The notes under the pieces were generated by a model. That model made no database searches. It saw nothing but the letters and a program-made list of their open reading frames with translations, and had not been told where the DNA came from. Source: Planctomycetota bacterium (GTDB taxonomy: Bacteria > Planctomycetota > Phycisphaerae > Phycisphaerales > SM1A02). From it: DNA of 35,714 nt. The stretch spans positions 1 to 35,714 of the forward strand of contig VGXR01000027.1 of assembly GCA_016873255.1 (NCBI GenBank), in the 5' to 3' direction. This document shows, one piece after another, positions 14,454 through 30,685 of the stretch (its first letter is position 1; each line of letters opens with the position of its first letter). Position numbers and translations under genes: made by a program.

Positions 14454-15104
14454 ATGCCCACGCAGAGCAGCGCGTTCCCCAACCTTCGGGTGTTCGACCA
14501 TCCGCTCATCCAGCACAAGCTGGCCGTGGCGCGCGATCGGCACACGCTGCCTGCGGACTTCCGGCGGCTGCTGAACGAGATCGCCGGGCTGATGACCTAC
14601 GAGGTCTCGCGTCGCTTCGAGACGCGCGGCGTGAAGGTGGAGACGCCGCTCGAGGTGGCCGACGGCCGCCAGCTCGCGCGCCCCGTCACGCTGGTGCCTG
14701 TCCTGCGCGCGGGCCTGAGCATGACCGACGGCGTGATGCAGCTCTTCCCCGAGGCGCGCGTGGGGCACATCGGCATCCGCCGCGACGAGGCCACCCGGCG
14801 CCCGGTCTTCTACTACGCGCGGCTTCCGTCGGACGTGCGCGACGGGTATTCGATCGTGGTTGACCCGATGCTCGCGACCGGCGGCAGTGCATGCGCTGCG
14901 ATCAGCTACCTCAAGGAGGCCGGCTGCCGGGACGTGCAGATGGTGTGCCTGGTGGCGGTGCCCGAGGGCGTGAAGCGCGTGCTCGACGAGCACCCTGACG
15001 TCATGATCCACGCGGCCGCGCTCGACCGCGGGCTCGATGCGGACGCATTCATCCGCCCCGGTCTCGGCGACGCGGGTGACCGCGTGTTCGGCACGATCGG
15101 TTGA
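14454..15104 (+). CDS. upp: Uracil phosphoribosyltransferase
   Basis: This pyrimidine-salvage enzyme joins uracil and PRPP to make UMP. The 216-residue protein has the family's blocks in order: VFDHPLIQHKL near the N-terminus, VPVLRAGLSMTDG, GHIGIRRDEATRRP, the PRPP loop VDPMLATGGSA near residue 138, and the C-terminal uracil-binding stretch FIRPGLGDAGDRVFGTIG. Length is normal. The ATG at 14454 follows GGAGGCCCC, a good ribosome binding site. Its TGA stop is flush with the left end of the first palindromic element. Confidence 0.95.
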   Translation: MPTQSSAFPNLRVFDHPLIQHKLAVARDRHTLPADFRRLLNEIAGLMTYEVSRRFETRGVKVETPLEVADGRQLARPVTLVPVLRAGLSMTDGVMQLFPEARVGHIGIRRDEATRRPVFYYARLPSDVRDGYSIVVDPMLATGGSACAAISYLKEAGCRDVQMVCLVAVPEGVKRVLDEHPDVMIHAAALDRGLDADAFIRPGLGDAGDRVFGTIG

Positions 15105-15221
15105 ATCCGCTCCTGGTTGGATGAATCAGCTCCTCGTTCCTTTGGCACCATTCTCCTTCTCCCGAGACTGGCGCGTTCTCTGGAGAGAGCAAATGGTGCC
15201 AAACTAACCAGGGACGGATTT
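15103..15221. repeat. Palindromic element, copy 1
   Basis: This is an imperfect inverted repeat with arms around TTTGGCACCATT (left) and AAATGGTGCCAAAC (right). It begins at the upp stop codon and ends at GACGGATTT. The centre (CCCGAGACTGGCGCGTTCTC) is nearly the same as in copy 3. The left end is partly duplicated: GAATCCGCTCCTGGTT is followed at once by GAATCAGCTCCTCGTT. The convergent pduO-type gene takes its TAG stop codon (15204-15206) inside the right arm. Confidence 0.88.
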
Positions 15222-15779
15222 CGCGGTCCACGGGGCGTCGGGGATGCCGCGCTCGTGGTTGGCGCGTCGCGCCATCGCAAAGAAGAGATCGCTGAGCCTG
15301 TTCATGTAGCGCAGCAGCGGGTCGCCGACGGGCTCGATGCTGCCGAGCGAGATGATGGCGCGCTCGGCGCGCCGGCAGACGGTGCGCGCAAGGTGCAGCC
15401 GCGCTGCGACCTCGGTGCCGGCCGGCATCACGAACGTCTGCAGCGGCGGGTTCGCGCTATCCATCTCGTCGATCCAGCCCTCGGCCTCGGACACGTCGGC
15501 GTCGTCGATGCGGTGGATCTTCGCCTGCTGCTTGGCGCCCTCGGGCGTGGCCAGGTCCGCGCCGATGTCGAAGAGCCGTGACTGCAGCGCCGAGATCACC
15601 TCGTGCGTCCGTCGCTCGAACGCGTGCCCGTGGTCGCACGCGGCAAGCACGAGCCCCAGCACCGCGTTCAACTCATCCACCGTGCCGTAGGCCTCGATCC
15701 GGGGGTGGTCCTTCGATACCCGCGCGCCGCTGAAGAGGCCGGTGGTGCCGTCGTCGCCGGTGCGGGTGTAGAGCTTCAT
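15204..15779 (-). CDS. Cob(I)alamin adenosyltransferase, PduO type
   Basis: This enzyme transfers the adenosyl group of ATP to cob(I)alamin to make coenzyme B12. The 191-residue protein opens with the PduO/MMAB signature TRTGDDGTTGLFSGARVSKDHP, continues with IEAYGTVDELNAVLG, and has the later CRRAERAI and RYMNRLSDLFFAMAR helices that form the five-helix bundle trimer. The last five residues (KSVPG) and the stop codon come from the palindromic element, so the native C-terminus was probably a little different before insertion. No B12-dependent enzyme gene is adjacent. It lies 57 bp downstream of the glycosylasparaginase gene. Confidence 0.93.
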   Translation of the reverse strand: MKLYTRTGDDGTTGLFSGARVSKDHPRIEAYGTVDELNAVLGLVLAACDHGHAFERRTHEVISALQSRLFDIGADLATPEGAKQQAKIHRIDDADVSEAEGWIDEMDSANPPLQTFVMPAGTEVAARLHLARTVCRRAERAIISLGSIEPVGDPLLRYMNRLSDLFFAMARRANHERGIPDAPWTAKSVPG

Positions 15780-15836
15780 AGGGGAGGGGCTTCGGCGGCC
15801 GGCACCGGCCGGATTCGTCCGGCGCGGCACGAGCCG

Positions 15837-16823
15837 TCAGTCAGCGCGCAGCGTAAACCCGGGCGGCTCGAGCCGTTCCCCGGAGGCATCCTGCACCGCC
15901 ACGAGGAACCCTGTTCGCAGGGCCGCCGCGCCCACCGCGCCGTCGCGGCCCATCACCACGAACGCCGTCTGGTGGTGGGGCTCGATGCGGTAGCTGTGCC
16001 CGATGCGCTCGACCACCGCCCGCGCCGCCTCGAGCGGCGTGGCCCCGCGGCGCAGCTCCTCCACCGCCAGGAACGAGCCGCACACCCCCATGATCAGCTC
16101 ACCGGTGCCGGTGGCGGTGGCCGCGCCGGCCTCCGGGTCGACGTAGAGACCGTGCCCGATGATGGGCGAGTCACCCACGCGCCCCGGCACCTTCCAGGGC
16201 GTTCCGCTCGTGCTGCATGCGCCCGCGAGGCGTCCGTCTGCGCCGACGGCAAGCGATCCGATCGTGTCGTGCGCGTGCCAGCGCCGCTCGGCGCGCGCGT
16301 GCTGCCCGAAGAGCGCACCGGCTCCCGGGACGCCCGTGTCCACCGGCCGGAGCGCCCGGTCGCGCGCCTGCGCGGCGGCGTCACCGCCCGACTCGAGCGC
16401 GCCCGCGCGCCAGCGTTCCCACTTCGCCCGCGCCTCGGGCGAGACCAGCTCGCGCTCGGGCTCGCCCTGCGCCCGCGCGAACGCATCCGCGGCCTCGCCG
16501 ACGAGCATCACGTGCGCGGTCCGCTCCATCACCCATCTTGCCACGCGGGCCGGGTGCAGGTGCCGGCGCAGCCCGCACGCGCTCCCGCACTCGGCCGGCG
16601 AACGCATGACGCAGCCATCAAGCGTGACGCGACCGGCGGCATCCGGCAGGCCCCCGAACCCGACGCTGTCGACGGCCGGATCCTCCTCGGCCACCCGGCA
16701 CGCCTCGAGGACCGCGTCCATCGGGTCGCCGCCTGCGGCCAGGCTTGCCCATGCTGATCGGTTCCCGAGGGCGGAGAAGCTCCAGGTGGACGCGATGCGG
16801 GGGCCGGAGGGAACGCTTGTCAT
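15837..16823 (-). CDS. N4-(beta-N-acetylglucosaminyl)-L-asparaginase
   Basis: This is an Ntn-hydrolase of the aspartylglucosaminidase type, cleaving the bond between asparagine and GlcNAc left from N-glycoproteins. The 328-residue precursor has TWSF near residue 13, DSVGFGGLPD near residue 52, LRRHLHPARVARWVMERTAHVMLVGE, and the autocleavage site HDTIG with T187 as nucleophile. PGRVGDSPIIG and ATATGTGE follow. Cleavage between D186 and T187 would give the usual alpha and beta chains. No signal peptide is seen, so the enzyme appears cytoplasmic. AAGG lies about 10 nt before the ATG. A broader isoaspartyl-peptidase role cannot be excluded, but these blocks favour the glycosylasparaginase branch. 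Confidence 0.9.
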   Translation of the reverse strand: MTSVPSGPRIASTWSFSALGNRSAWASLAAGGDPMDAVLEACRVAEEDPAVDSVGFGGLPDAAGRVTLDGCVMRSPAECGSACGLRRHLHPARVARWVMERTAHVMLVGEAADAFARAQGEPERELVSPEARAKWERWRAGALESGGDAAAQARDRALRPVDTGVPGAGALFGQHARAERRWHAHDTIGSLAVGADGRLAGACSTSGTPWKVPGRVGDSPIIGHGLYVDPEAGAATATGTGELIMGVCGSFLAVEELRRGATPLEAARAVVERIGHSYRIEPHHQTAFVVMGRDGAVGAAALRTGFLVAVQDASGERLEPPGFTLRAD

Positions 16824-17139
16824 TATTGGCCCTTCAGGCTACCCCGCATCGGCGCCCGGCCAACCCCGGTCCGGAATTCGAAAGCCTGCCTGAATCCCGC
16901 GCCGAAAGGTGTCTCGTATGGAAGGGGGGACGGGTACCCTTCCCTGTCCTGGCCCCGCGAGGGGCTCGGGACAACCAAACGGCCTCGCGATCCTGCCGCC
17001 AAAGGACCGCATCCTGTTCGAGTCCAGCCCGCCGGAGCTGGCTTGCCGAATCTCGAAGCCTCGGCAAGGTCCTACGCACCGGTCACGTCTCGGTTCGGAC
17101 TCTTCATGCGGCCCGCGGGCTGCAGAAAGGCGAGATGGA
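16824..17139 (+). promoter_or_regulatory. 316-bp intergenic region with several potential hairpins
   Basis: No gene was found between the divergent glycosylasparaginase and pilin-like genes. The region holds a 7-bp stem GGAAGGG/CCCTTCC (16920-16926 with 16937-16943). It also holds two adjacent stems just upstream of the pilin-like gene: CCAGC/GCTGG (17024-17028 with 17037-17041) and the perfect 8-bp CTTGCCGA/TCGGCAAG (17042-17049 with 17061-17068). This could be a structured 5' leader, but I could not match it to a known riboswitch class. No confident promoter was found. Confidence 0.4.
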
Positions 17140-18294
17140 ATGAACCGTCTCAAGAAGGGCTTCACGATCGTCGAGCTGCTGGTGGTCGTTGCGATCATCG
17201 CGCTGCTCATCGCGATCCTGCTGCCCGCCATCGGCAAGGCGCGTGATGCAGCGCTCGTCACGCAGAGCCTCGGCAACCTCCGCAACCTGGTTGCGGCGTG
17301 CAACGCGTACGGCGCCGACTACAACGACCGCCAGTACACGGCCTGCCCGGACGAAATTGGCCTCTACGGCAACTTCCCCACGGGCGCGTGCGCCGGCATC
17401 GTCGCCTCCCAGTGCATCCCGCAGATGGTGCTCGGATGGGACCAGACCGGCGGCCTCTGGGGCTACTGGATCGCCGGACAAAACCCCTCGGGCCGCTGCG
17501 CCGGCTGGCCCGGAAACTGCGGTAACTTCATCGTCTACCAGCCGTGTGATTACTGGAGCGGCAGCTGGCTCGGCTCTTGGCGCCTGACCAACTGCAAGGC
17601 CTTCAACACCTACGTCAACGGCAGGTACTACGACAAGGTGTTCTGGGCGCCCAAGGACAAACTGACCCTCGAGAATGTGCAGAAGTACTTCGAGATGCCG
17701 GTCGAGTTCAGTTACGACCAAACCAACTACGAGGAGCCCACCTATTGCTGGAGCCCGGCTGCCATGTGGTCGCCGGACGTCTTGGCGTGGTCCCGCCGCC
17801 TCAACGGCACCGCAGGCTGCCCGGCTCGCCCCGGTGCGGCCCCAACCGCGGCGTTGATGCCCGGCGCGTACAGGAGCCCGTCCGCCAGCATGTCGCAGTA
17901 CCCCTCGCTGAAGTGGCGCATGTGGGAGCACCAGTGGCTGCAGAACACCGAGGGCGGCGAAGTGAACCCTGCGTTCAACACGCCGACCCCCTGGTTCTAC
18001 AACCACGGCTACAACAGCGCTCCCGCAGTGATGTGCTTCGACGGCCACACGCAGGTCGTGTCGATCGCCGGCATCCAGCAGGATGACGACCTTTCGCAGG
18101 CCCAGAACCCCGGCGTCGGGGGCAGCAAGACCCTGTGGTTCCACTCGATCACGGGCACCGGCGACGGGTACTACTCGAACGGTGCCTACGACCAGCTCGT
18201 CTACCGTTTAGGCCAGTCCTGCCCCTCGGTGGCGGCCGGCGTGGCGACCGTCGACGGCATCCTCGGCCGCGACATGCTCCGCATCGGCGACTGA
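17140..18294 (+). CDS. Prepilin-type pseudopilin-like protein
   Basis: The 384-residue product has a class III (type IV pilin) signal. The leader is MNRLKKG, with cleavage expected between G7 and F8, followed by FTIVELLVVVAIIALLIAILLPAIGKAR with the conserved Glu at +5 (E12). A hydrophobic helix anchors it in the membrane before assembly. The rest is an aromatic and Cys-rich exported domain (many Trp, Tyr and Cys between residues 60 and 200) ending with a FDGHTQVVSIAG segment. Planctomycetes often carry many such genes, in part as type II secretion pseudopilins or surface proteins. No secretion ATPase or prepilin peptidase gene is adjacent. AGAAAGG lies upstream of the ATG. A strong terminator follows. 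Confidence 0.85.
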   Translation: MNRLKKGFTIVELLVVVAIIALLIAILLPAIGKARDAALVTQSLGNLRNLVAACNAYGADYNDRQYTACPDEIGLYGNFPTGACAGIVASQCIPQMVLGWDQTGGLWGYWIAGQNPSGRCAGWPGNCGNFIVYQPCDYWSGSWLGSWRLTNCKAFNTYVNGRYYDKVFWAPKDKLTLENVQKYFEMPVEFSYDQTNYEEPTYCWSPAAMWSPDVLAWSRRLNGTAGCPARPGAAPTAALMPGAYRSPSASMSQYPSLKWRMWEHQWLQNTEGGEVNPAFNTPTPWFYNHGYNSAPAVMCFDGHTQVVSIAGIQQDDDLSQAQNPGVGGSKTLWFHSITGTGDGYYSNGAYDQLVYRLGQSCPSVAAGVATVDGILGRDMLRIGD

Positions 18295-18346
18295 GTCCGG
18301 CGGAGGCCTCGCCTCCACGGCTGCGCCGACGACACCAGTGCTTTCC

Positions 18347-18384
18347 CGCGAGGGCCGCTCCGTGCGGCCCTCGCGGTGCTTTTA
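18347..18384 (+). terminator. Intrinsic terminator after the pilin-like gene
   Basis: A perfect 12-bp GC-rich stem (CGCGAGGGCCGC with GCGGCCCTCGCG, 18347-18358 and 18364-18375) has a 5-nt loop and is followed by GTGCTTTTA. It lies 52 bp after the pilin-like stop codon and ahead of the peptidase gene. It should separate the two transcripts, although the T-run is short. Confidence 0.85.
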
Positions 18385-18436
18385 CGGCCGAAGGCACCCG
18401 ACGTGTTCCTACAATCACGGCCTCGAAAGGCCCGAA

Positions 18437-20551
18437 ATGCAGCACGCTTCCGCTTCCGTTCGCCTAGCCGCCGTCTCCCTGCTCTCGACCGTGGCATGGG
18501 CGGCCGCGCCATGGCAGGATGCGCCTGTCACGAAGGAGACGCCCGCCACGAAGGATGCGCCCGCATCATCGGAGGCACCGGCGACGCAGGACGCGCCTGC
18601 GGCTGCGGACGCGCCCGCTGCGCCGCCCGCGGGCAAGATCATCGAGGGTGCGGTCAACGTCTACTCGTGGGCACCCGACGACAGCGCCAAGCGCGTCGAG
18701 GCCAAGGACATCGACCTGCGCAAGGTCTTCGAGGACCTCGGTCCCGTGGCCACGCGCTGGTACCAGCACGCAATCACGCTCTCCAACCCGTGGTTTGAGG
18801 GGCGCGCGCCCGGCGTTCGTGGCAACGACCTCGCCGCCGAGTACCTGGAGTTCTGGATGAAGGACACCGGGCTCGAGCCCGCGTTCCCCGCGGTGGGTAC
18901 CGATGGCGTGACGCCCAAGGACGGCGAGTGGACGAGCTACATGCAGGAGTTCGCGCTGACGGGCGGCTCGCCGAAGGTGGAGCTGGCGCAGGCCTCGTTC
19001 GGCGGCAAGGACCTCGAGCGCGGCAAGGACTACGCGGTCCTCGGCATCTCGGGCACGGCCAAGGCCGAGGCGCCGGTGACGTTCGTCGGCTACGGGATCG
19101 AGAAGGGTGAAGGCGGCTACTCGAGCTACGAGGAGGGCGCCGACCTCACGGGCCGCATCGCCATGGTGCTGCGGTACGAGCCGCTTGACGACCGCGGGCA
19201 CTCGAAGTGGGCCTCGCGCCGCTTCAGCGAGTTCGCCAACATGAGCGACAAGATCAATGCCATCGTGGACCGCGGCGCCGCGGGCATCATCCTGGTGGCG
19301 CCCCCGGGAGTGCGCTACGGCAAACCGGACCTCGAGGACGTCTCGACCAGCCGCTGGGGCCGCCCGCTGGACATCCCCGTGGTGCAGGCAAGCGCGGAGC
19401 TGGCCGAGTCCATCCTGAAGGCCGGCGCGCCCGACAAGGGCTCGCTCATGGACTGGCGCGTCCTCGCGGACGAGGGCAAGGTGAAGACCGTCGCGCTCGG
19501 AGACGGGTCGAAGCTGGCGCTCGAGACCAAGCTGTCCGTCGGCGGCACCCCTACGCAGAACGTGGGCGGCGTGCTGCGGGGCAAGGGCTCGCTGAAGGAC
19601 GAATGGGTGGTGGTGGGCGCGCACTACGACCACGTGGGCTACGGCTACTTCGGCACCAGCCCGCAGTACACCGGGCAGCTGCACCCCGGCGCGGACGACA
19701 ACGCAAGCGGCACCTCCGCCATGCTGTGCGTCGCGCAGCTGGTGGCCGAGCGCTACGCGGCGAAGGACGCTCCCGCGGACGCGCGCAGCGTGCTGTTCCT
19801 GGGCTTCACCGCCGAGGAGAGCGGGCTGCGCGGCAGCAAGTGGTTCGTGGAGCACCCGACCATCCCGGGCGACAAGATGTCTCTGATGGTGAACATGGAC
19901 ATGGTGGGCCGCCTGCGTTCGGACGACCTCGCCGTGGGCGGCATGTCGTCGGCCAAGGACATGGTGGAGATCATGCGCCCGGTGTTCGAGCGCAGCGGCC
20001 TCGTCATCCGCGCCGACCCGTCCGGGCGCGGGCCGAGCGACCACGCCAGCTTCTACGGCGCCGGCATCCCCGTGGTGTTCATCTACACGGGCAACCATGA
20101 CGACTACCACACGCCGAAGGACAAGGGCTACACGCTCAACCCGGAGGGCGCGGCCAAGATCGTTGGCATGACCACCGACATGGTGATGACCATTGCCACG
20201 CGCCCCGAGAAGCTGGAGTTCAAGCAGGGCAGCGGCCGTTCCGCGGACCGCGGCTACGCGGCCGTGCGCCTCGGCGTCATGCCCCGCATGGACGACGAGC
20301 GCCCCGAGGGCGCGCCCAACAACGGCGTGATGGTGGATGCGGTGAGTGCCGATACATCGGCTTCGGATGCCGGCATCCGCAAGGACGACGTGCTGCTTGC
20401 GTGGAACGGCGAGGAGCTCGAGGGCGCATCGACCATGATGGCCAAGCTGCGCAGCCACAAGCCGGGCGACGTGGTGAAGTTGAAGGTCTGGCGCGAGGGC
20501 AAGGAAGTGGAGCTCGACGTCACGCTGCGCGCTGCGAAGCCGAAGGAGTAA
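18437..20551 (+). CDS. Exported M28 zinc peptidase with PA and PDZ domains
   Basis: The 704-residue protein has a signal peptide (about residues 1-24) and then a linker of repeated DAPA/EAPA units to about residue 60. A PA-like insert spans roughly 180-340 (VTFVGYGIEKGEGG, AAGIILVAPPGVRYG). An M28 catalytic domain has the zinc ligands in VVVGAHYDHVG (about 395), GADDNASG (about 418), FTAEESGLRGSKWF (about 458), NMDMVGR and DDYHTPKD. A C-terminal PDZ domain (about 615-700; GVMVDAVSADTSASDAGIRKDD) follows. It probably acts as a periplasmic or outer-surface aminopeptidase, with PDZ helping substrate or partner binding. AAAGG lies 8 nt before the ATG. Its TAA stop is flush with palindromic element copy 2. 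Confidence 0.92.
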   Translation: MQHASASVRLAAVSLLSTVAWAAAPWQDAPVTKETPATKDAPASSEAPATQDAPAAADAPAAPPAGKIIEGAVNVYSWAPDDSAKRVEAKDIDLRKVFEDLGPVATRWYQHAITLSNPWFEGRAPGVRGNDLAAEYLEFWMKDTGLEPAFPAVGTDGVTPKDGEWTSYMQEFALTGGSPKVELAQASFGGKDLERGKDYAVLGISGTAKAEAPVTFVGYGIEKGEGGYSSYEEGADLTGRIAMVLRYEPLDDRGHSKWASRRFSEFANMSDKINAIVDRGAAGIILVAPPGVRYGKPDLEDVSTSRWGRPLDIPVVQASAELAESILKAGAPDKGSLMDWRVLADEGKVKTVALGDGSKLALETKLSVGGTPTQNVGGVLRGKGSLKDEWVVVGAHYDHVGYGYFGTSPQYTGQLHPGADDNASGTSAMLCVAQLVAERYAAKDAPADARSVLFLGFTAEESGLRGSKWFVEHPTIPGDKMSLMVNMDMVGRLRSDDLAVGGMSSAKDMVEIMRPVFERSGLVIRADPSGRGPSDHASFYGAGIPVVFIYTGNHDDYHTPKDKGYTLNPEGAAKIVGMTTDMVMTIATRPEKLEFKQGSGRSADRGYAAVRLGVMPRMDDERPEGAPNNGVMVDAVSADTSASDAGIRKDDVLLAWNGEELEGASTMMAKLRSHKPGDVVKLKVWREGKEVELDVTLRAAKPKE

Positions 20552-20727
20552 ATCTGCTCCTCGTTCGTTTGGCACAAATCGTTTTCTCCAGGGAAATCTG
20601 GGAGCGGGTGGTGTTTGGTTGCCGGTCGGCGAGGCGTCCAGGCCCATCTGCGTCGCACCGCGCATCGGCCGGCCAACCGGACTTCTCTGGAGAAACGATT
20701 GGTGCCAAACGAACCAGGAACGGATTT
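20549..20727. repeat. Palindromic element, copy 2 (long form)
   Basis: The left arm begins at the M28 peptidase stop codon (TAAATCTGCTCC) and runs through TTTGGCACAAATCGTTTTC. The right arm runs from GAAACGATTGGTGCCAAACG to CGGATTT. Both arms carry AATCG where the other copies have AATTG or AATTT, so the arms change together. The centre is about 80 bp longer than in other copies and holds a nested imperfect inverted repeat (GGTTGCCGG near the left, CCGGCCAACC near the right). Confidence 0.88.
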
Positions 20728-20747
20728 CGCCGGCTGGTGGCAGCGCG

Positions 20748-21557
20748 TCACCCCAGCGCGAGGCGGCCGCCGTCGACGGGCAGGTTCACGCCCGTCAGGT
20801 AGCTCGCCGCGGGCGAGGCAAGGAACACGGCGACGGCGGCGATCTCCTCGGGCGCCGCGAACCGGCCCATCGGGACGAGCCGCATCGCATCGGCCTCCAC
20901 TTCCTGGAGGCTGACGCCCGCCCGGCGCGCGCGTCCGTCGAGGAGGGACTCGAGCCGCGCCGTGCGCGTGAACCCGGGAAGGATGGTGTTGACGGTGATG
21001 CCGAACGGCGCCAGCTCCACCGCGAGCGTGCGGGCCCAGTTGGCGACCGCGGCACGAATGGTGTTGGAGACGCCGAGGCCACGGATTGGCGTCACGACGC
21101 TGGTGGAGGTGACGTTGATGATGCGCCCGTGGCGCGCCTCGCGCATGCCGGGCGCGAAGCACTGGACCAACGCATGCGCGCTCAGGAGGTGCATCTCGAA
21201 CGCCTTGGTGAAGTCCTCGGCCCGTGCCTCGATGGCGCTTCCGGCCGGCGGCCCGCCGGTGTTGGTGAGCAGGATGTGCACGGGCCCCGCCGTCTCCACG
21301 TGCGTCCGAGCGGCCAGTTCCACGTCGCGGGACGAGGAGAAGTCCACCTCGACCGACCAGTGCTTCTGGCCCGCGGTGCGCGGCAGCTCCTCGAGCGTGC
21401 GGATGAGGCCTTGGTCGTTTCGCCCGCAGGCGGTCACGGTGGCGCCCGCGGCGGCCATGGCGATCGCGGTGGCCTTGCCGATGCCCTGGGTGGCGCCGCA
21501 GACGAAGGCGTGTCGGCCGAGGAGCGGGAGGCTGGCGGTGGCGGCGGCCGTGGACAT
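20748..21557 (-). CDS. SDR-family oxidoreductase lacking the YxxxK pair
   Basis: The 269-residue Rossmann protein of the short-chain dehydrogenase/reductase superfamily has the cofactor motif CGATQGIGKA near residue 20, then ACGRN, LLTNTGGPPAG (the NAG-type motif) and a FabG-like tail ending TGVNLPVDGG. The active-site region reads INVTSTSVVTPIRGLGVSNTIRAAV, with Ser and Arg where classical enzymes have the catalytic Tyr and Lys. Some FabG-like SDRs share this SNxxR pattern. The reaction is therefore unknown and may not be a classical ketone reduction. MSTAAATASL at 21557 is the start that fits the Rossmann position. It is divergent from the GH95 gene across 48 bp. Confidence 0.85.
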   Translation of the reverse strand: MSTAAATASLPLLGRHAFVCGATQGIGKATAIAMAAAGATVTACGRNDQGLIRTLEELPRTAGQKHWSVEVDFSSSRDVELAARTHVETAGPVHILLTNTGGPPAGSAIEARAEDFTKAFEMHLLSAHALVQCFAPGMREARHGRIINVTSTSVVTPIRGLGVSNTIRAAVANWARTLAVELAPFGITVNTILPGFTRTARLESLLDGRARRAGVSLQEVEADAMRLVPMGRFAAPEEIAAVAVFLASPAASYLTGVNLPVDGGRLALG

Positions 21558-21558
21558 G

Positions 21559-21605
21559 GCGGGAGGGTAGCGAACCGCGGCAGGCGGGAGCGGTAGAACT
21601 CCCGC
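21559..21605. promoter_or_regulatory. Direct repeats and start-codon hairpin upstream of GH95 gene
   Basis: GCGGGAG followed by GGTAG occurs twice (21559-21570 and 21584-21596, the second with one extra C). The second GCGGGAG pairs perfectly with CTCCCGC (21599-21605), giving a 7-bp stem and 8-nt loop that ends directly at the GH95 ATG. The GGGAG in the stem is the only ribosome-binding-site-like sequence nearby, so the hairpin could mask it. Confidence 0.45.
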
Positions 21606-24600
21606 ATGGGCGCGCTGCTCCGTTTCCGTGAATTGGCCGTGGCCGTCCTGGCGTCGGTGGCCGCGCTGCGTGCGCCCGCCGATGCACTGGCCGAGGCGCC
21701 GAACGCGCCGAACGCGCCGCCCGCGCCCCATGTGTCGCACGCCGCGGGCGACGACGCACGCACGCTCTCCGGCATCACGCTTGCCCCTGCTGCCGTGCCC
21801 GGCGCATGGGAAGGGCATGGACTTCCCGTCGGTGCAGACGGCATCGCGTGGTACGTGGCCGAGGTTTCGCTCGATGCGGAAGACGTGCTCGGAGACCTCG
21901 TGCTCTCGCTCGGCCGCGTCGATGACGACGACGAGTCGTGGTTCAACGGGACGCGCATCGGTGCCACGCAGGGTGCCGACCGCGTTCGGTCGTATCCGGT
22001 GCCGCGTGCGCTGCTGCGGGAGGGGATCAATCGCGTGGCCATCCGCGTGACGGACCGCGGCGGTGCTGGCGGCATCATGGGCGCGCCGGGAATGCCGGCG
22101 CTCGAGGGCGCGCGCACGCGCATCGAGCTTGCGGGCCGATGGTGGATCGCAGCGGGCGATCACCCGGCGCTCGCGTCGTTCGACCCCGTGATGGACCCCG
22201 ACCTGCGTGCGCGCATGGCGCCCATCGCCGTGGGCGTGCGCGCCACCAAGGTGAACCCCGACGAGGCAGTCGTCGGCCCGCAGCCGGACCTCTGGTACGC
22301 GCGCCCCGCATCACGGTGGACCGAGGCGCTGCCGGTGGGGAACGGGCGGCTGGGCGCCATGGTCTTCGGGGGCGTGGGACACGAGCGCATCCAGCTGAAC
22401 GAGGCCTCGGTCTGGGAAGGGAACGCGGGCGACCGCAACGCGCCGAAGGCCGCGGCGAGCTTCCGCGCCGCGCGCGCGCTCGCGCTTGCGGGGAAGGTGG
22501 TCGAGGCGCAGGAGATCCTGCAGCGCGACTGCATGCTGCCCCAGGACATGATGCCGCGCAGCCACCAGACGCTCGGCGACCTGTTCGTGGAGTTCGAACG
22601 TGCCCCGCGCGCCGTGGATGAGTATCGGCGCGGACTTGACCTGCGCACGGGCGTCTCGACCACGCGCTTCGAGGTGGACGGGGTGCGGGTGGTGCGCGAG
22701 GTGGTGGCGAGCGCGCCGGATGAGCTGCTTGCGGTCTGCGTGCGCGTGGACGGCGATGGCACGCTGCCCGACCTTCGCGTGCGGCTGCGCCGCCAGGCCT
22801 TCGGGACGGACGTTCCGGCGCATGCGGCAATCCCCGCCCAGCGGGGTGCGCGGCTTTCCTACGCAGGTCGCACGGGGCAAGGTGGCGTTCGCTACGTGAC
22901 CACGGCGGACGTTCGCGCGGATGCCGGCAGCGTCGACGTTGCGGATGGTGACGCAGTGGTGCGCGGCGCGCGGCGCGTCACCGTGTGCGTGGCCGGGCGA
23001 ACGGACTACTTCGGCATGCGCCTGGCCGACCGTGTGCCCGCACCGGGTGCCGAGGGCGCGGCGGTGGCCTCAAGCAGCGACCCGGCGGCGCAGTGCGAGA
23101 CGGACCTTCGCAGCGCGCAGGTCGGGTTCGACGCGCTTCGCGAGCGCGCGACCGCGTGGACCTCCCGCGCGATGGATCGGGTGGAGATCGATCTCGGTGG
23201 GCCGCCGCCCGAGTCGAGCGCTGCGCCCGGGCTGCTCTCCACCGAGGCGCGCCTCGCGAGGTTCCGCGGCAAGCCCGAGTGGGACAACGGACTGGTGGAG
23301 CTCTACTTCCGCTATGGCCGCTACCTGCTGCTCGCCTCGAGCCGCGAGGGCAGCCTGCCCGCAAACCTGCAGGGCATCTGGAACGAGCACTTCCGTGCGC
23401 CGTGGAACGCGGACTTCCACACCAACATCAACGTGCAGATGAACTACTGGCCCGCGGGTCCGTGCGCGCTGCCGGAGACCGAGCTGCCGCTCATCGACCT
23501 GATCGACCGCGTGCGCGTGCGCGGCGCCGACACGGCACGCGACCTCTACGGCATGCGCGGATGGTGCTGCCACCACATCACCGATGCGTGGGCCGTGACG
23601 TCGCCCGAGGGGCAGACCGTGTGGGGGATGTTCCCGCTCGGGGGCGCATGGCTTGCGCGCCACCTGTGGGAGCACTACGAGTTCACCGGCGACGCGGTGT
23701 TCCTCCGGGACCGTGCGTACCCGGGGCTCGAGGGCGCGGTGCGGTTCGTGCTGGACTACCTGGTGGAGGACCCGGCCACCGGGATGCTGATCGGCGGGCC
23801 GGCAAACAGCCCGGAGAATTCCTTCGTGCTCGCGGACGGCCGTCGCGCGGACGTGAGCATGGGGCCGTCGATCGAGCTGTGGATCGCGCGCGACCTGCTG
23901 GTGAACTTCGTGGATGCGGCGCGGGTCCTCGGGCGCGGCGGCGAGGCGCTTCCGATGCAGGCCGATGCGGCGCTGGCGAAGCTCGCGATGCCGCGGATCG
24001 GCGCGGACGGCCGGCTGATGGAGTGGTGGCAGCCCTACGGCGAGGCGGAGCCCGGGCACCGGCACATGAGTCACCTGTACGGGCTGCATCCGGCGTCCTT
24101 CATCACGGTTGATGGCACGCCGGACCTCGCGGCGGCTGCGCGCAGGAGCCTCGATGAGCGGCTTCGCCAGGGCGGCGGCCACACCGGCTGGAGCCGCGCG
24201 TGGCTGATCAGCTTCTGGGCGCGGCTTGGCGAGGGCGAGCGTGCGTGGGGCGACGTGTGCGCGCTGCTTGCGAAGTCGACGCTGCCGAACCTGTTCGACG
24301 ACCACCCCCCGTTCCAGATCGACGGCAACTTCGGCGGCACGGCGGGCATCGCCGAGATGCTGCTGCAGAGCCACGTGCGCAGCTGGTCGGCGGGGCACCT
24401 GGTGCACCGGATCGACCTGCTCCCTGCGCTGCCGAAGGCATGGCGCGATGGCAGCGTGCGCGGGCTGGTGGCGCGCGGGAATGTGCGCGTGGACATGGAG
24501 TGGAAGGGCGGGACGCTCGTGCGCGCGAGGCTGGATGCGCCGGATGGCCGCGAGCTGCGCGTCAGGATGCCGGGCGGCACGGAGCGCGTGAACGTGCGCG

Positions 24601-24698
24601 TGCAGGGTCAGCCGGCGCTCGACCTGCCCGTGCCGGACGGCGTGGTCATCATCCCCCGTGCCGCGGCCGGCGCGGCGCGCACCGTGGAGCTGCGGTAA
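21606..24698 (+). CDS. GH95 family glycoside hydrolase (alpha-L-fucosidase type)
   Basis: The 1030-residue exported enzyme probably releases terminal fucose (or galactose, in some members) by inversion. A signal peptide (about residues 1-28) is followed by a beta-sandwich, sugar-binding-like domain at about 40-185 ([15 protein letters not shown]). The GH95 part begins with [39 protein letters not shown]. The catalytic barrel has [69 protein letters not shown] and, near residue 904, [18 protein letters not shown]. All these blocks are typical of the family. Its TAA stop is flush with palindromic element copy 3. Confidence 0.93.
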
Positions 24699-24796
24699 AT
24701 CCTCTCCTAGTTCGTTTGGCACCAATTTCCTTCTCCCGAGACCAGCGCGTTCTCTGGAGAAAACAATTGGTGCCAAACGAACCAGGAACGGATTTA
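24696..24796. repeat. Palindromic element, copy 3 (both ends are stop codons)
   Basis: This is an almost perfect example of the element: the left arm TAAATCCTCTCCTAGTTCG pairs with the right arm ending CGAACCAGGAACGGATTTA. The inner part GTTTGGCACCAATT/AATTGGTGCCAAAC pairs exactly. Its first bases are the TAA of the GH95 gene. Its last bases, read on the other strand, are the TAA of the convergent peptidase gene, so the element exactly fills the space between two stop codons. Confidence 0.9.
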
Positions 24797-27700
24797 GAGG
24801 TCTCGCTCGGCGAGCTTGCGATTGAGCATGAGGGTCCGGACGTCGGGGTCGACGACGGCCTTCGTGGGCTTGAAGTCGCTCTCGATGGTCAGCGCGATGG
24901 TCTCGCCCGCCGAGATGGTGCCACGGGCGCGCGCATCGCGGTACTCGGGGCGCTGGGTCGCGGCGGCGGCGCGTTCCTTGGGCGTTCGGCAGATGGAGGC
25001 CTCGGGCCAGCGTTCCTCGCCGTTGGTGACGGCCACCTCCAGCGGGACGGTCGCTGTGTTGGCGTTGCGCACCGTGATCACCGTTCGCCACGGGTCACCG
25101 TCCTTCGCGGGTGCAGTGACCGTGGCCGACTCGACCTTGAACTCCGGCACCACCACGTCGTAGAACCACTGCTTGGTGAATGCGTCGTAGGCCGCGGCAT
25201 CGGGTGCGTGCGGCCGCAGCGCCTCCACCAGGTCCTGCAGCAGCGGGAAGTCGGGACCGTCCTTGAACGCACCGATGAAGTCCCGCATCGCGGCGTCCAT
25301 GCGCTCCTCGCCCATGTGCTCCATGAGCATCCAGAACACCCATCCGCCCTTGTCATAGGTGACCGTCTGGTCGCCGCTGCGGCTGCCGTCGGTCTCGGTC
25401 ATGGGAAGCTCGTCGTCGGCACTGCGCTGGACGCCGTACTGGAACTCGAGGTTCCGCATGAACGCCATCCGCATGCGCTCGCCGCGGATCTGGCGGATCA
25501 GGCGCGCGGACGAGTAGTGCGCCATGCCCTCGCTGAGGATGTTCCCGCCCGGGTCGATGCCCGGGCGCAGGATGTTGCCGAACCACTGGTGCGCCGCCTC
25601 GTGCGCGGTCACCATGAAGGGCGTGTCCTCCTCCGGCGTCGGCCGTGACATGAAGCCGATCGTCTCGCTGAAGGTGATGTTGGTCGGGAACCCCTGCGCG
25701 TAGGCCGCGAGCCCCGGAAACTCGCTCAGCCGAAGCTCCTTCCACGGGTACGGCCAGAACCACTTCGAGTACCACTCGTGCGCGCCGTCAAGCGCCTCGA
25801 GCATGACCGGCACGTTGAACCCGTGCTCCGGCAGGTGCCAGATGACCGTGGACTTGCCGCGCGACTCCTGCCACCGGCCCGCCACCACGTTCACCGCCAT
25901 CACCGGGTGATCGGTCTCCCATCGCATGGTCCGAACGCCGTCGGCGACGGTGTCCGCGACGCATACGCCCGGCATGTTCGCGCGGTAGTCCTCGGGCACG
26001 CGGATGGTGGCCCTGACGGTGGTGTGGCCGCCGGTGCCGAAGGCGGTCTTGGTGACCTTCTTCCAGTCGTTCGGTCCGACGCGCTTCGGCTCGGGGGTGC
26101 GCTCGGGGTCCACGCCCACGCCGTCCACGTAGCCCATCTCGGGCAGGAACGTCGGCCCGAAGCTCGTGAGCACCGTGCCCGCGGGCAGGATGAACTCACC
26201 CGCCCCGGCCGGGTTCTTGCGCGTTCCCGAGGGCACGCGCACCTCGTAGCCGAAGCCGACGTCCACCTCCGCGCCGGGCGCCAGCGGCGCGTCGGGCGTG
26301 AACACCCAGAGGCCCGCGCTGTCGTCGACCTTGCGCGCGCGGGGGTTTCTCTTCCTGGCCTCGGCCGCGGACTCGCGCGTCCACTCCTGGCCGTCGAAGG
26401 TGAACGTCAGGCCGGTGAACGTCGTGTTCGGCGTCATCGCGAACTGCCGCATGGGCGCATCGGTCATGTTGCGCAGGCCGTACGAGCCCTTCACGCGCAG
26501 GCTGCCGTCCGCGGGCGCCAGGTCCATGTCAAGTTCGATCCGGACGATGGTCGGCTGCGACACGTCCTTCCACGTGTTCGCGTTGCCGACGTAGTACTGC
26601 TTCTCGCGCTCGCGCTCGGGCGAGCCGCCTGGTCCCTCGCGCACCATCACGGCCAGCGTGACGCCGCAGGCGATGGCCGGCGCTGCGAACACGAGCATCC
26701 GCGCGCCGCGCTTCCATGCGCGCGACCACTGCAGGCGCGAGGTGATGCCCTGTGCGTCCGGCGTGCGCCGGCGCCACCACTCGACGGCCGCGTGCAGCAT
26801 GGTGAGGCCAACCAGTGCCCAGAGCACGCGGTTGAGCACCAGCGCGCCGCGGTCCATCTGGAGCGGCCCGAAGTCGGTCCACGTGAGGCCGTCCCACAGG
26901 TACCAGTTGAACACCCAGTTCATGAACCCCTGCCGCACGCACCAGCCCGTCGCGATGAGCGCGCCGAGGCCCGCCGCGTACACGCCGTAGCGGTTCCGGA
27001 ACAGGCTCCACGCAAGCGCGAGGAAGCACATCCATGCGAAGAGCGTCGCGGACATCATCGCGCCCCACGCGAGCATGAACGGCCACGGAGTAGGCGGCAT
27101 GAGGATGCCCGTCTGGACCCACTGCACCGCCAGCGCCACGGTCACCGTCGACCAGACGGCGCCCAGCACCGCAAGCACCACGGTCGCGGTGCAGGCGAGC
27201 ATGCGCCCGAGGAGGAGCGGCGCGAGCGACGTGGGCGTCGCGTTCACGATCGCCGAGATGCGCGAGCGGTCGTCGCGCGCCAGGCTCTCCGTGAAGTAGT
27301 AGAGCACCATCAGCGCCGAGAGCAGGGTGACGGTGTTGTAGGTCTCGCCCGCGAACGCGCCCGCGGAGGTGAGGTTGGGCGTGCCGAACGCGCCCGGCGT
27401 GTACAGCGCGCCGATGCACTGGACGCAGACGAGCGGCACGAACACCCAGAGACCTGGCGAGCGGCGCAGCTCGCGGGCCTCCGCGCGGAATGCATCGGCA
27501 AGCGCGGCCATCGCGCTCACGCGCGACTGCGTCATGCCGAGCGCGGCAAGCGTGACATCCGCGCGCGGGCGTGCCTCGGCCATCCGCTGCTGGGCATCGG
27601 CCTGCGCGATGATTGCCGCGCGGGCCGCGCTCGCCACGGCGAACGGCGCGCGCATCCTGCGCCGCTCGCGGTGCGCCGCGGCCAGGAGCGCGGCGACGGC

Positions 27701-28492
27701 CGCCGCGGCAAGGCCCGCACGCTGCGCGAGCATCAGCCCGTCGAGCGCCAGCGGCTGCGTGTTGTAGAAGGCGGCACCGCGGTCCACCTTGATCCACGTC
27801 TCGTTCATCCAGCGGAACCCGGTGAGGTCGACCGCCTGCAGCGCGCGGTTGCCCCATTGCGGCAGCCACTCCGGGGAGAAGCTCCACAGGAAGAAGACGT
27901 TCGCCAGGAGCAGGGCCACCGGCAGCGCGAACACCAGCACGGCCTGGCGAGTGACCGCGCCGATCGCGAAGCTGATGGCGCCGAGCGAGAGCACCGGCAG
28001 CAGCACGAAGAGCGCCATCGGGCGCACGTAGTTCACGAGCGCGAACGGCCCGCGCATCTTCTCCGGCTCCGCGAGCGGGTAGAGCTCGTAGAAGCCGACC
28101 TGCATGGCGAGGTGGATCCCGACGATGGCCGTGTACACGAGCGCCACGCCGAGCCAGCGTCCCGCGACGTACTGCCCGGGCGTGAGGCCCGTGCTGCCGA
28201 CGATGGGCATGATGCGCAGTGCGTCGTCCTCGCTCGGGGCGTTGCCGAACGCCGTGCACACGAAGAAGACGTAGAAGAGCGCCAGGAGCAGCATGTCGCC
28301 GAACGCGAGGTTGAACTCGCTGTTCAGGAACGCGCGCTCGCCGCCGGCCACGCGGCTGCCGGTGCCGATCTGCACGGCGCCTGCGGCGAAGCCCCAGTTC
28401 AGGAAGAGGAGGATGGCGAGGAAGACCCAGAGCGACGGGCGTCGCCAGGCGGTCTTCAGCTCGAGGAAGGCAAGGGTCAGGATGCGGTGCAT
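24794..28492 (-). CDS. ABC-2 permease fused to M1 metallopeptidase
   Basis: The 1232-residue membrane protein has two ABC-2-type permease halves (about residues 1-270 and 310-620), each with about six helices (first LTLAFLELKTAWRRPSLWVFL; second starts near DAFRAEARELRRSPGLWVFV). A periplasmic M1 peptidase domain follows (about 650-1232). Its zinc site is HEAAH (about 962-966) with the third ligand in LSEGMAHY. There are 19 residues between the second His and that Glu, one more than the usual 18. Before it, the sequence YAQGFPTNITFSE replaces the GAMEN motif of classical aminopeptidases. Fusions of this kind are known in bacteria but their substrate is not. MHRILTLAF at 28492 starts the first helix. 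The ATPase partner is the gene just upstream. Confidence 0.9.
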   Translation of the reverse strand: MHRILTLAFLELKTAWRRPSLWVFLAILLFLNWGFAAGAVQIGTGSRVAGGERAFLNSEFNLAFGDMLLLALFYVFFVCTAFGNAPSEDDALRIMPIVGSTGLTPGQYVAGRWLGVALVYTAIVGIHLAMQVGFYELYPLAEPEKMRGPFALVNYVRPMALFVLLPVLSLGAISFAIGAVTRQAVLVFALPVALLLANVFFLWSFSPEWLPQWGNRALQAVDLTGFRWMNETWIKVDRGAAFYNTQPLALDGLMLAQRAGLAAAAVAALLAAAHRERRRMRAPFAVASAARAAIIAQADAQQRMAEARPRADVTLAALGMTQSRVSAMAALADAFRAEARELRRSPGLWVFVPLVCVQCIGALYTPGAFGTPNLTSAGAFAGETYNTVTLLSALMVLYYFTESLARDDRSRISAIVNATPTSLAPLLLGRMLACTATVVLAVLGAVWSTVTVALAVQWVQTGILMPPTPWPFMLAWGAMMSATLFAWMCFLALAWSLFRNRYGVYAAGLGALIATGWCVRQGFMNWVFNWYLWDGLTWTDFGPLQMDRGALVLNRVLWALVGLTMLHAAVEWWRRRTPDAQGITSRLQWSRAWKRGARMLVFAAPAIACGVTLAVMVREGPGGSPEREREKQYYVGNANTWKDVSQPTIVRIELDMDLAPADGSLRVKGSYGLRNMTDAPMRQFAMTPNTTFTGLTFTFDGQEWTRESAAEARKRNPRARKVDDSAGLWVFTPDAPLAPGAEVDVGFGYEVRVPSGTRKNPAGAGEFILPAGTVLTSFGPTFLPEMGYVDGVGVDPERTPEPKRVGPNDWKKVTKTAFGTGGHTTVRATIRVPEDYRANMPGVCVADTVADGVRTMRWETDHPVMAVNVVAGRWQESRGKSTVIWHLPEHGFNVPVMLEALDGAHEWYSKWFWPYPWKELRLSEFPGLAAYAQGFPTNITFSETIGFMSRPTPEEDTPFMVTAHEAAHQWFGNILRPGIDPGGNILSEGMAHYSSARLIRQIRGERMRMAFMRNLEFQYGVQRSADDELPMTETDGSRSGDQTVTYDKGGWVFWMLMEHMGEERMDAAMRDFIGAFKDGPDFPLLQDLVEALRPHAPDAAAYDAFTKQWFYDVVVPEFKVESATVTAPAKDGDPWRTVITVRNANTATVPLEVAVTNGEERWPEASICRTPKERAAAATQRPEYRDARARGTISAGETIALTIESDFKPTKAVVDPDVRTLMLNRKLAERDL

Positions 28493-28593
28493 CGGCGGTC
28501 GGTCCTGTGTTGGTCGGCGGGGCGGTTGCTTGGGTCGCTGGCGTCGGGCGCGCGGTCCGTCGATCTGCGGGTCTGCGGAACTTCGTGGGCCCT

Positions 28594-29502
28594 TCAGGCC
28601 GCGGCGACCGGGCGCGTCGCATCGGAGGCCCGGCTCTCGTCCATCACCCCGAAGTACACGTCTTCGAGCGTCGGCGGCACGGGAACGAAGCCCGCGGGCT
28701 GCTGCCCGGCCTCGCCCTGGACGCGCGTGCGGAACATCGACCCCTCCACCAGCACGGCCTGCGTGACGCGGTGGGAGGCGCGGATCCGCTCGAGCGCCGC
28801 CGGTTCGACGATCCCCTCGAAGACGCGGCCGTCGAGGCGCCGGCGCGCGTCGCTCGTGCCGCCGCTCGTGACGCATCGGCCGCCGCGGATCACGGCGAAG
28901 CGCGGGCAGAGCGTGGCGATGTCCTCGACGATGTGCGTCGAGAGCAGCACGATGCGGTCGCGGCCGAGCTCGGCGAGGATGCGGTAGAAGCGCTGGCGCT
29001 CCTCGGGGTCGAGGCCGGCGGTCGGCTCGTCCACGATGACGAGCCGCGGATTGCCGGCGATGGCCTGCGCGATGCCGAGGCGCTGGCGCATGCCGCCCGA
29101 GTAGGTGCGCACCTTGCGCCTGGCCGCGTGCGCGAGGTTGACGCGGTCGAGCAGCTCCTCGACCAGCCTCTTGCGGCCCTGCGGCGCATCCACGCCCTTG
29201 AGCCGCAGCAGGAAGTCGAGCATCTGCGCGCCGCTCAGCGACGGGTAGAAGCCGAAGTCCTGCGGCAGGTAGCCGAGGCGGCCCCACACCGCGCGAGGGT
29301 CGGTCACGATGTCCGTGCCGTCGAGCGTGACCGTTCCGCCGGTCGGCTCGAGCAGCCCGGCGAGGATGTTCATGAGCGTGCTCTTGCCGGCGCCGTTCGG
29401 GCCGAGCAGCCCGAAGAGCCCCTCGGGGATGTCAAGCGAGACGCCCTTCAGCGCGGCGACGGGACCGGGGTAGATCTTGACGAGGTCGTTGATGCGAAGC
29501 AT
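28594..29502 (-). CDS. ABC transporter ATP-binding protein
   Basis: The 302-residue ATPase should energise the permease/peptidase fusion encoded next. It has Walker A GPNGAGKST near residue 36, the Q-loop LGYLPQDFGFYPSLS, the signature TYSGGMRQR, Walker B LVIVDEPTAGLD and the switch histidine in STHIVED. The roughly 80-residue C-terminal extension (ending SRASDATRPVAAA) is typical of ABC-2 export ATPases. The ATG at 29502 lies 4 bp outside palindromic element copy 4. The AGGAG at the end of that element, about 11 nt before the ATG, is the best ribosome binding site. The permease/peptidase gene follows after 101 bp in which I see nothing notable. Confidence 0.95.
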   Translation of the reverse strand: MLRINDLVKIYPGPVAALKGVSLDIPEGLFGLLGPNGAGKSTLMNILAGLLEPTGGTVTLDGTDIVTDPRAVWGRLGYLPQDFGFYPSLSGAQMLDFLLRLKGVDAPQGRKRLVEELLDRVNLAHAARRKVRTYSGGMRQRLGIAQAIAGNPRLVIVDEPTAGLDPEERQRFYRILAELGRDRIVLLSTHIVEDIATLCPRFAVIRGGRCVTSGGTSDARRRLDGRVFEGIVEPAALERIRASHRVTQAVLVEGSMFRTRVQGEAGQQPAGFVPVPPTLEDVYFGVMDESRASDATRPVAAA

Positions 29503-29506
29503 GCCT

Positions 29507-29606
29507 ACATTCGCTCCTGGTTACATTGGCACCAATTGTTTTCTCTGGAGATGTCCGTCGTTCCGTGGAGATGGAAACTGGTGCCAAACGAACCAGGAAC
29601 GGATTT
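29507..29606. repeat. Palindromic element, copy 4 (inside a gene cluster)
   Basis: The left arm TTCGCTCCTGGTTACATTGGCACC pairs imperfectly with the right arm GGTGCCAAACGAACCAGGAACGGATTT; the centre differs from copies 1 and 3. Unlike the other copies it lies between two genes of the same direction. Its right end abuts the TGA stop of the HAAS/sensor gene (29606-29608). Its left end carries the AGGAG that precedes the ABC ATPase start. Confidence 0.85.
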
Positions 29607-30685
29607 CAGCCGCGTGGCGGCACGGTGGCCCGCGGGCGTGCCACCTGGATCGCCTGCACCACGTTGCCGTACACCCAGCCGAGGCCACGCATGAGCCAGA
29701 GGCCCGCGGTGGCCACGGCAACGCCGACCGCGAAGGAAAGGACGATGAGGGAAGGCGGCAGCCGCACGACTCCGTCCGCGTCCGGCGTCAGCTCGCGGCC
29801 GAGGTAGGAGACGGTCACGTCGTCCGCGTCGTCCAGGTCGAGGTGCAGGGCGTGGACTCCCAGCACCTCGAGGAGCGGCACGCCGATGAGCACGGCGCTT
29901 GCCGCTGCCACGGTGACGGTCACCGCAAAGAGCACGACGGCGACCGGGAAGTTGCCCAGCAGGTAGCCGAGCGACAGCCAGCTCCGCACGTCCTTCAGCC
30001 AGCACCAGATGCGCTGCCAGAAGCCGACGGTGTCCGCGCCCTCGACGGGCTGCACGCGCCTCGGCATGCGCACGCCGAGGAAGACCTCGACCACCTTGCC
30101 CTCGAAGAGGCACAGTGCCCGCGCGCTCCCGAGCAGGAAGATGAAGAGCGGCACGCCGACGATCACGGTCGCCAGGCCGATCGACAGCGACCCGATCACG
30201 ATGGCCCACACGAAGTAGGCGACAGACAGCGCAAATCCGACCGCGCCGAAGTAGACGAGCGCACCCCACGCCCTCGCATCCGCCCAGATGCCGAGCACCG
30301 GGATGTCGCGGACGCGCCAGGGCGCAGGCACGGCCGGGGCCGCCTCGACGCCCCCTGGCACGCTCGAACGGTGGCTGCCCGAACCAGTGCCGGCGAGCGC
30401 CGTGCCGGGCTCGCCGCGCCACGCGGAGGCAGACACCGGGCGCCCGCTCGCTGCCGACGCGCCCTCGGCCGCCAGGTACGCCGTCGCGATCTCCGCGGGC
30501 CTTCCGTACTCCGCGATCGCCCGCTCCGCGTCGACGCCTGCCCGTACCGCCGCGCGGAGGTGGCCCTCGGCGTCGAGGAGCGCATCGTGGCGGAGCGCGG
30601 GATCGGCGCGCTCAAGCTCCAGCTCCAGTTGCAGCAGGTAGGCGCGGATCGGGCCGGGGATGACGGGCGGTTCAGCGGATGCCAT
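29606..30685 (-). CDS. HAAS-type membrane protein with putative sensor domain
   Basis: The 359-residue protein begins with a helical HAAS/DUF1700-like domain (about residues 10-75; IRAYLLQLELELERADPALRHD, then AIAEYGRPAEIATAYL). A low-complexity linker leads to a membrane region with two pairs of helices (about 145-195 and 250-290) and a final helix near 320-340. The pattern, with LGYLLGNFPVAVVLFAVTVT, recalls the 'putative sensor' domain often encoded beside PadR-like regulators. It probably senses or relays membrane state, but the ligand is unknown. Its start overlaps the padR-type gene by 14 bp, so the two are coupled. Its stop abuts palindromic element copy 4. Confidence 0.78.
   Translation of the reverse strand: MASAEPPVIPGPIRAYLLQLELELERADPALRHDALLDAEGHLRAAVRAGVDAERAIAEYGRPAEIATAYLAAEGASAASGRPVSASAWRGEPGTALAGTGSGSHRSSVPGGVEAAPAVPAPWRVRDIPVLGIWADARAWGALVYFGAVGFALSVAYFVWAIVIGSLSIGLATVIVGVPLFIFLLGSARALCLFEGKVVEVFLGVRMPRRVQPVEGADTVGFWQRIWCWLKDVRSWLSLGYLLGNFPVAVVLFAVTVTVAAASAVLIGVPLLEVLGVHALHLDLDDADDVTVSYLGRELTPDADGVVRLPPSLIVLSFAVGVAVATAGLWLMRGLGWVYGNVVQAIQVARPRATVPPRG

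Follow-up and report, generated by a model that had tools for sequence, protein, structure and literature searches.

Palindromic elements on the stop codons of convergent genes in an SM1A02 planctomycete: a probable REPIN-like repeat family

The window analyzed here, a stretch of 35,714 nucleotides (nt) from a Planctomycetota bacterium of the lineage SM1A02 (contig VGXR01000027.1), is contig C27 of a 2.78-Mb genome, G000 (152 contigs, 97% complete), and contains four palindromic elements, E1 to E4, several ends of which coincide with stop codons of the adjoining genes. They probably belong to a REPIN/TIR-like family of miniature inverted-repeat elements that was spread by a Y1 transposase and settled at convergent gene junctions, their flush position resulting from stop formation combined with selection. 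According to this model, the copies would have been spread by a Y1 (IS200/IS605-like, RAYT/TIRYT) transposase that was later lost from G000, and most of those kept would be at 3'-3' junctions that, in so compact a genome, are short or overlapping; they may survive there because their AAA ends and the stops within their arms close both reading frames at once. The few original nucleotides between the genes would have been lost at insertion or afterwards, and the flush position would reflect stop formation and selection at the joint, not recognition of stop codons. The species is presumably of freshwater origin, as judged from sample-like isolate names.

An arm model built from 39 arms was run over G000, 13 species of the same genus, and 27 genomes of the family and order. 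In G000 it gave 81 matches at E<=1e-3 and 88 at E<=1, corresponding to about 50 elements, and the similarity therefore extends well beyond the four loci from which the family had been described; the exact sequence TGGTGCCAAAC occurred 35 times in the genome, versus 0 for the reversed control. Among the 13 same-genus species, the model found one match in G005 and two weak ones in the sister species G012, and it found none at E<=1e-3 in the 27 family and order genomes. Half-sites of the outer-end pattern numbered 55 in G000, 24 in G012, and 0-3 in each of the other 12 members of the genus, and exact-pattern scans of viral and GTDB sequences, from which near records may be left out, gave 0 matches. 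Each element consists of two inverted arms of ~34-46 nt around a variable interior, with ends of the type GAAAT/TAAAT and a total length of 44 to 735 nt in G000. A total of 32 inverted pairs was counted, or 30 without two doubtful pairs, one of which was double-counted through the inner left end of E1, while the other, on contig C6, encloses a gene. The G012 copies form a diverged sub-family with near-perfect arms and differing loops (loops compared by eye). Elements were present in both species at E1 and at loci L136, L137, and L146, a lower bound, as the comparison covered fetched loci; the single arm at C30:28226 in G000 corresponds to a doublet (L146) in G012. The G000 copies look old, and those of G012 look younger or homogenized. 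The idea of a small mobile palindrome, put forward in the preliminary description, is supported by a family that is dispersed, species-restricted, and missing from the examined orthologous sites in most relatives, with arms resembling repeats that flank Y1 transposase genes in sister species.

For the position of stop codons, a codon model was trained on the window, each arm end was placed in a reading frame, and the stop met first in that frame was recorded; gene calls outside the window rest on this window-trained model, and Pfam support covers the genes adjoining the four window elements (matches for 8/8). From the 88 arm matches, 87 were used (C107:1481-1503, E 0.39, was left out), and C12:1-40, a match at a contig edge, was also excluded, leaving 86 ends. 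Removal of seven ends with a coding score <0.2 and of seven facing gene starts left 72, one of which is the inner left end of E1; the left arm at C5:57139 was outside the model list and is uncounted. The stop overlapped the element end or sat within the arm at 61/72 of these gene-facing ends, and most stops were concentrated at four positions. Thirty-six stops were at offset -1 (T/AA, T/GA, or T/AG, the slash marking the element border), eight at -2 (TG/A), and 11 outside the element, and 17/72 genes ran past the element end to a stop within the arm, which was a TAG at +15 in 11 cases and a TGA at +30 in six. Element-linked stops occurred in all three frames.

The codons used at these ends differ from those of the genome at large. 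The stops of 320 genes in an element-free 400-kb sample (20 control stretches free of all listed elements) were 286 TGA, 28 TAG, and 6 TAA, whereas TAA accounted for 22/36 flush stops (p=1.8e-20), an excess which shows that the element supplies the stop letters. Frame 2 was the most frequent class (41/72 ends); a T precedes AAA and makes the stop in 36 of these, as it must by definition at offset -1, the other five, with a G, stop before the element, and no frame-2 gene (0/41) reads on into it. Among the 21 frame-0 ends, 17 read into the arm, and in none of those 17 does a T stand before AAA. The bases at an element end therefore tend to vary with the frame in which the neighboring gene is read, a pattern that neither a fixed target nor a target duplication would produce. 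In G012, frame 2 of the arm contains a TAA at +14, and three of the seven frame-2 ends in that species keep G and stop there (L137, L139, and L149), both L141 ends are T/AA, and two stop earlier; at usable G012 ends, the stop lies in or overlaps the element in 11/17, and the other six are 6-10 nt away. Some ends that do not serve as stops are degenerate, namely the left ends of E4 (ACATTC) and of C9:12476 (GGATTC).

Gene tails were compared with those of relatives by eye at 15 ends, two of which (C9:21166 left and C5:15509 left) were dropped for a wrong frame, giving 13. The joint lay ~0-4 codons from the native stop at 12/13 ends, with the qualification that the tail difference against a single relative can be >4 codons (GH95 of G013). 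At five of the 13, native residues were lost and element-coded residues gained: PWTPTQR, LERRRKR, and LANPRTGPQWS, each ending at the stop in relatives, are represented here by PWTA/KSVPG, LERR/KSVPG, and LANPRSGE/RFAPG, respectively. Six others differ by 0-2 codons, within the variation among relatives, and the exception is the SDR gene beside E2, which kept its native stop 20 nt from the element. Most relatives examined lack an element at these junctions, where their genes either overlap or are separated by anything from a few to several tens of nt (read by eye).

The two-armed elements lie between convergent genes in 25/30 cases (27/32 before the two doubtful pairs were dropped), a count that includes two ends with low coding scores (C8 right and C9:21166 left). 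In the 400-kb sample, convergent pairs make up 48/315 of the neighbor pairs, the median convergent gap is 17.5 nt, 12/48 overlap, and the coding density is 92.7%. One G012 element (L147) was located between divergent genes.

Within the window, the four elements were recovered where they had been described, and the motif TTTGGCACCA was found nine times with <=1 mismatch, eight of these within the elements (shuffle mean 0.95, n=100). E1, E2, and E3 lie between genes on the + and - strands, in agreement with the convergent placement reported earlier, and the five flush stops and the sixth, in-arm stop given for them and for E4 were all recovered as follows. E1 (15103..15221) separates upp (+), whose TGA (15102..15104) straddles the element end (T beyond it, GA within), from the gene of a pduO-type cobalamin adenosyltransferase (-), whose TAG (15204..15206) is inside the arm at +15. 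The last codons of the latter gene, KSVPG, are encoded by E1, while the tails in relatives are PWTPTQR, PWTPKPVK, PWTPKPRA, or AWKPRAH. The left end of E1 is duplicated (a partial copy at 15103-15120 plus 15124-15167; right arm 15177-15221). At this site G012 has a diverged element, with the joint and the KSVPG tail in common with G000, and G001, G004, G005, G007, and G013 have none. E2 (20549..20728; arms 20550-20595 and 20683-20727, interior ~90 nt) lies between an M28/PDZ peptidase gene (+) and an SDR gene (-). The M28 stop, TAA at 20549..20551, is composed of a T and the AA of E2; its tail AKPKE is kept at the length seen in G012, G004, G007, G013, and G001, which use TGA. The SDR stop (TGA, 20748..20750) is native and 20 nt outside the element end at 20727, making this side the sole gene-facing element end in the window that is not at a stop. 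E3 (24696..24796; arms 24697-24741 and 24751-24795, loop 9 nt) fills the gap between a GH95 gene (+) and an M1/ABC-2 gene (-), and its opposite ends form the TAA stops of both (24696..24698 and 24794..24796). E4 (29507..29606) is placed between the start side of an ABC-transporter ATPase gene, which its degenerate left end (29507) faces, and the stop side of a HAAS/Sensor gene (-), of whose TGA (29606..29608) only the A belongs to the element. The E2-E3 segment (20749-24690) is inverted relative to G001, G004, G007, G008, G010, and G013 and has the same orientation as in G012, which would place E2 and E3 at the borders of an old inversion.

The candidate mobilizer was sought in the 14 genus genomes (assembly completeness 97% for G000 and 88% for G012). 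The search for a TnpA_REP (RAYT) gene suggested in the preliminary description turned up none in G000, where a Pfam search was likewise negative for Y1 transposases, and strong IS200-like Y1 genes (E<1e-80) in 9/14 genus genomes. These genes are bounded by inverted repeats, varying by species, at 8/9 loci examined; at the G005 locus, no bounding inverted repeats were seen. The flanking repeats overlap the neighbor's stop at 10/16 ends, which is TAA or TGA from AAAT-type ends and TAG from the GTAG-type ends of G001, the only one of these loci with GTAG repeats. When 34-nt units were compared with the repeat of the G004 Y1 gene (whose product is 100% identical to one in CAMBSR010000061.1), the G012 arms were 24-25/34 identical and the G000 consensus 22/34; as the best of 12 comparisons, this likeness was reached by 0/20000 letter shuffles and 8-32/20000 core-only shuffles. 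The likeness of the arms to Y1-flanking repeats is good but indirect evidence for a Y1 mobilizer, which would have acted on the family before its loss.

Several observations weigh against a Y1-spread, REPIN-like origin. The arms carry no GTAG-type head, and no Y1 transposase was found above noise in G000 (best E 0.09) or G012 (0.145), so that none with exactly these arms on its flanks came to light. Of the eight Y1 loci, five are apparently at one position, which we take to be between valS and folC, and are therefore not independent, and coding scores are low (<=0.14) for five Y1 loci. Other flanking repeats are less arm-like (G007 20-23/34, G008 18-20/34, and G002 18-19/34), and that of G002 was equaled by 567-2577/20000 core-only shuffles. 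Since the T at offset -1 is given by definition, the informative counts are those for frame 0 and for reading on. In G000, arm identity within elements is 0.752 versus 0.744 between elements, with 1006/5000 shuffles as good, and without the out-of-register E1 it is 0.803 versus 0.794 (738/5000). Finally, simple insertion leaves two-sided flush ends unexplained where relatives have gaps; for an element flush on both sides, overlap, deletion, or replacement is needed.

How the elements came to fit so closely can be read in other ways. A mobile palindrome that recognizes stop codons, inserting for example just after the T that opens a native stop, would account for the 61/72 ends with a stop overlapping or inside, for the predominance of frame 2, for the unchanged M28 tail and several other flush tails only 0-2 codons off relatives, and for the Y1-flanking repeats that also lie on stops; a native T/GA followed by the AA of the element would even yield the TAA excess. 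The earlier proposal of insertion at TRA stop triplets thus fits the 36 ends of the T/AA type, which fit supply of the stop by the element equally. It is not favored overall and seems quite improbable to us, because 17 genes run into the arm, native residues have given way to element-coded ones in five of 13 tails, a single insertion point cannot coincide with two stops that in relatives are separated by a few to several tens of nt, and most G012 ends are other than T/AA. A more serious competitor, to which we give somewhat less than an even chance, is that elements landed at any point of short 3'-3' gaps, after which a bias toward deletion removed the remainder up to the stop-giving end. The compact genome with its short or overlapping convergent gaps, the loss of the native gap and of up to ~4 codons, the few ends that retain >=20 nt, and the degeneration of some non-stop ends agree with such erosion, yet intermediates are few (stop outside at 11/72 ends), and in G012, whose copies are near-perfect and probably younger, 11/17 stops already lie in or overlap the element, though six are at 6-10 nt. 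It is unlikely, in our estimation, that the elements are portable 3'-end cassettes, in which a mobile process replaces the whole stop-to-stop interval of convergent genes, bringing new stops and short tails to both, with family A here and family B in the sister species displacing each other at shared junctions; if true, selfish repeats would periodically rewrite the termination sites of a bacterial lineage. The earlier alternative of 3'-end structures copied between genes received no direct support, as the units are inverted pairs and L147 of G012 stands between divergent genes.

Ordinary bidirectional transcription terminators, repeated by duplication or factor binding, would likewise be found at 3'-3' junctions, and G012 has a second, unrelated palindrome (GAAAAyATGCCGGGGG/CCCCCGGCATrTTTTC) that looks terminator-like and occurs at the junctions of E3, E4, the M28 side of E2, and C21:32800, with 49 half-sites in G012 versus 0-5 in each of the other 13 genomes. 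The family nevertheless has no T-run, its arms in G000 do not co-vary, and its sizes of up to 735 nt and interiors in common with other repeats are against a terminator role, which we regard as rather improbable. A terminator scan of 14-31 kb gave five sites versus 4.9 expected, one touching an element (the left end of E2) and none in E1, E3, or E4, although the scan is weak and also misses the terminator-like G012 palindrome at L150. On these chance-level results, intrinsic terminators composed of a GC stem and a T-run were not supported, within the limits of that test. RNA folding of three window elements gave z-scores of -6.0 (E1), -11.8 (E3), and -5.2 (E4). Pairing is not maintained in G000, where the two arms of an element resemble each other no more than they resemble the arms of other elements, and a hairpin under pairing selection was not supported for that genome on the same grounds; in G012, arm identity is 0.988 within versus 0.881 between elements (0/5000 shuffles as good), with near-identical arms in 10/10 compared pairs. 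No Rfam family matched in the window, and seven further loci gave one tRNA, outside the element. No direct repeat common to the flanks of G012 elements was seen by eye, and many G000 elements have left and right end bases that differ. TA target-site duplication of the IS630 type was dropped as a poor fit to the TGA joints and the unequal end bases.

Among known systems, the closest are the REPINs, as defined in the relevant part of Bertels & Rainey 2011 (PMC3116915), and REP/RAYT systems, in which, according to Nunvar 2010 (PMC2817692), a RAYT gene invariably has two inverted REPs at its flanks. On these accounts, the present family has in common inverted doublets, conserved ends, a variable spacer, an extragenic position, at least one solitary arm whose counterpart in G012 is a doublet, and a Y1 transposase of the clade flanked by inverted repeats. 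It differs in arms of 34-46 nt, the lack of a GTAG/GTGG head, its ~50 elements, the lack of a transposase found in the genome, and doublets that no longer co-vary in G000. One sentence of Di Nocera 2013 (PMC3733652) states that GTAG REP termini often supply a TAG stop, and the same paper places most convergent REPs no more than 20 bp from each 3' end and describes TIR-flanked Y1 genes (TIRYT, motif GGGGWSAS). As set out there, the convergent preference, a distance of <=20 bp from both 3' ends, stop-supplying termini, and planctomycetes among the hosts are features in common with our family, and GGGGACAG in the G007 repeat and one G002 copy matches the TIRYT motif. In contrast to those GTAG REPs, most stops here are TAA or TGA, completed by the terminal AAA of the element; they occur on either side of it and in three frames, and are backed by counts and by comparison with orthologues. 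Compared with a TIRYT-associated TIR repeat, the arm is 22-25/34 identical to the G004 repeat, and no Y1 gene with these arms was found among the genus genomes. Repeat ends giving TAG stops being already known from that source, the novelty is in the degree and mechanism of stop supply. The portion of RepRanger 2025 (PMC12306157) on E. coli reports that REPs within 15 nt of stop codons stall ribosomes; there too a hairpin repeat stands beside the stop, but the stop is outside the repeat, whereas here the predicted stop overlaps it or lies inside. Rickettsia palindromic elements (RPE), mentioned in PMC3733652 as inserted in coding sequence, are also mobile palindromes that add residues to host proteins; RPEs lie within genes, however, and the elements here end the protein. 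No description of this palindrome family was found in the literature among the matches listed.

The family offers a quantified case of a probably mobile repeat that supplies dozens of host genes with their stops and, in some, with the final residues of the protein, in all three frames and on both sides of convergent junctions, with element-free states known from sister species. With it, the way in which REP-like elements become established at 3' ends can be tested, as can the question of whether repeat capture is a route by which stop codons and C-terminal tails evolve.

Some further observations concern the second palindrome and the interior of the elements. In 20 fetched G012 loci of the second palindrome (L150-L169), 20/22 usable gene-facing ends overlap a stop or are within 9 nt of one. 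Interior modules of the long elements are also dispersed in 12/13 other genus genomes (e.g., L045:2050-2680; L215-L234), and nine of 20 fetched copies lie clearly between convergent genes. At L050 (G000:C6:52731-53321), a gene, presumably RidA-like, lies between two arms, and its stop abuts a sequence similar to the transposase repeat of G003 that runs into the arm. Inner arm sequence recurs in ~15-nt tandem units beside single arms at L083 and L088, and element ends recur in tandem steps of 15-22 nt at L048, L054, L072, and window 15103-15125, as if by slippage or repeated end capture.

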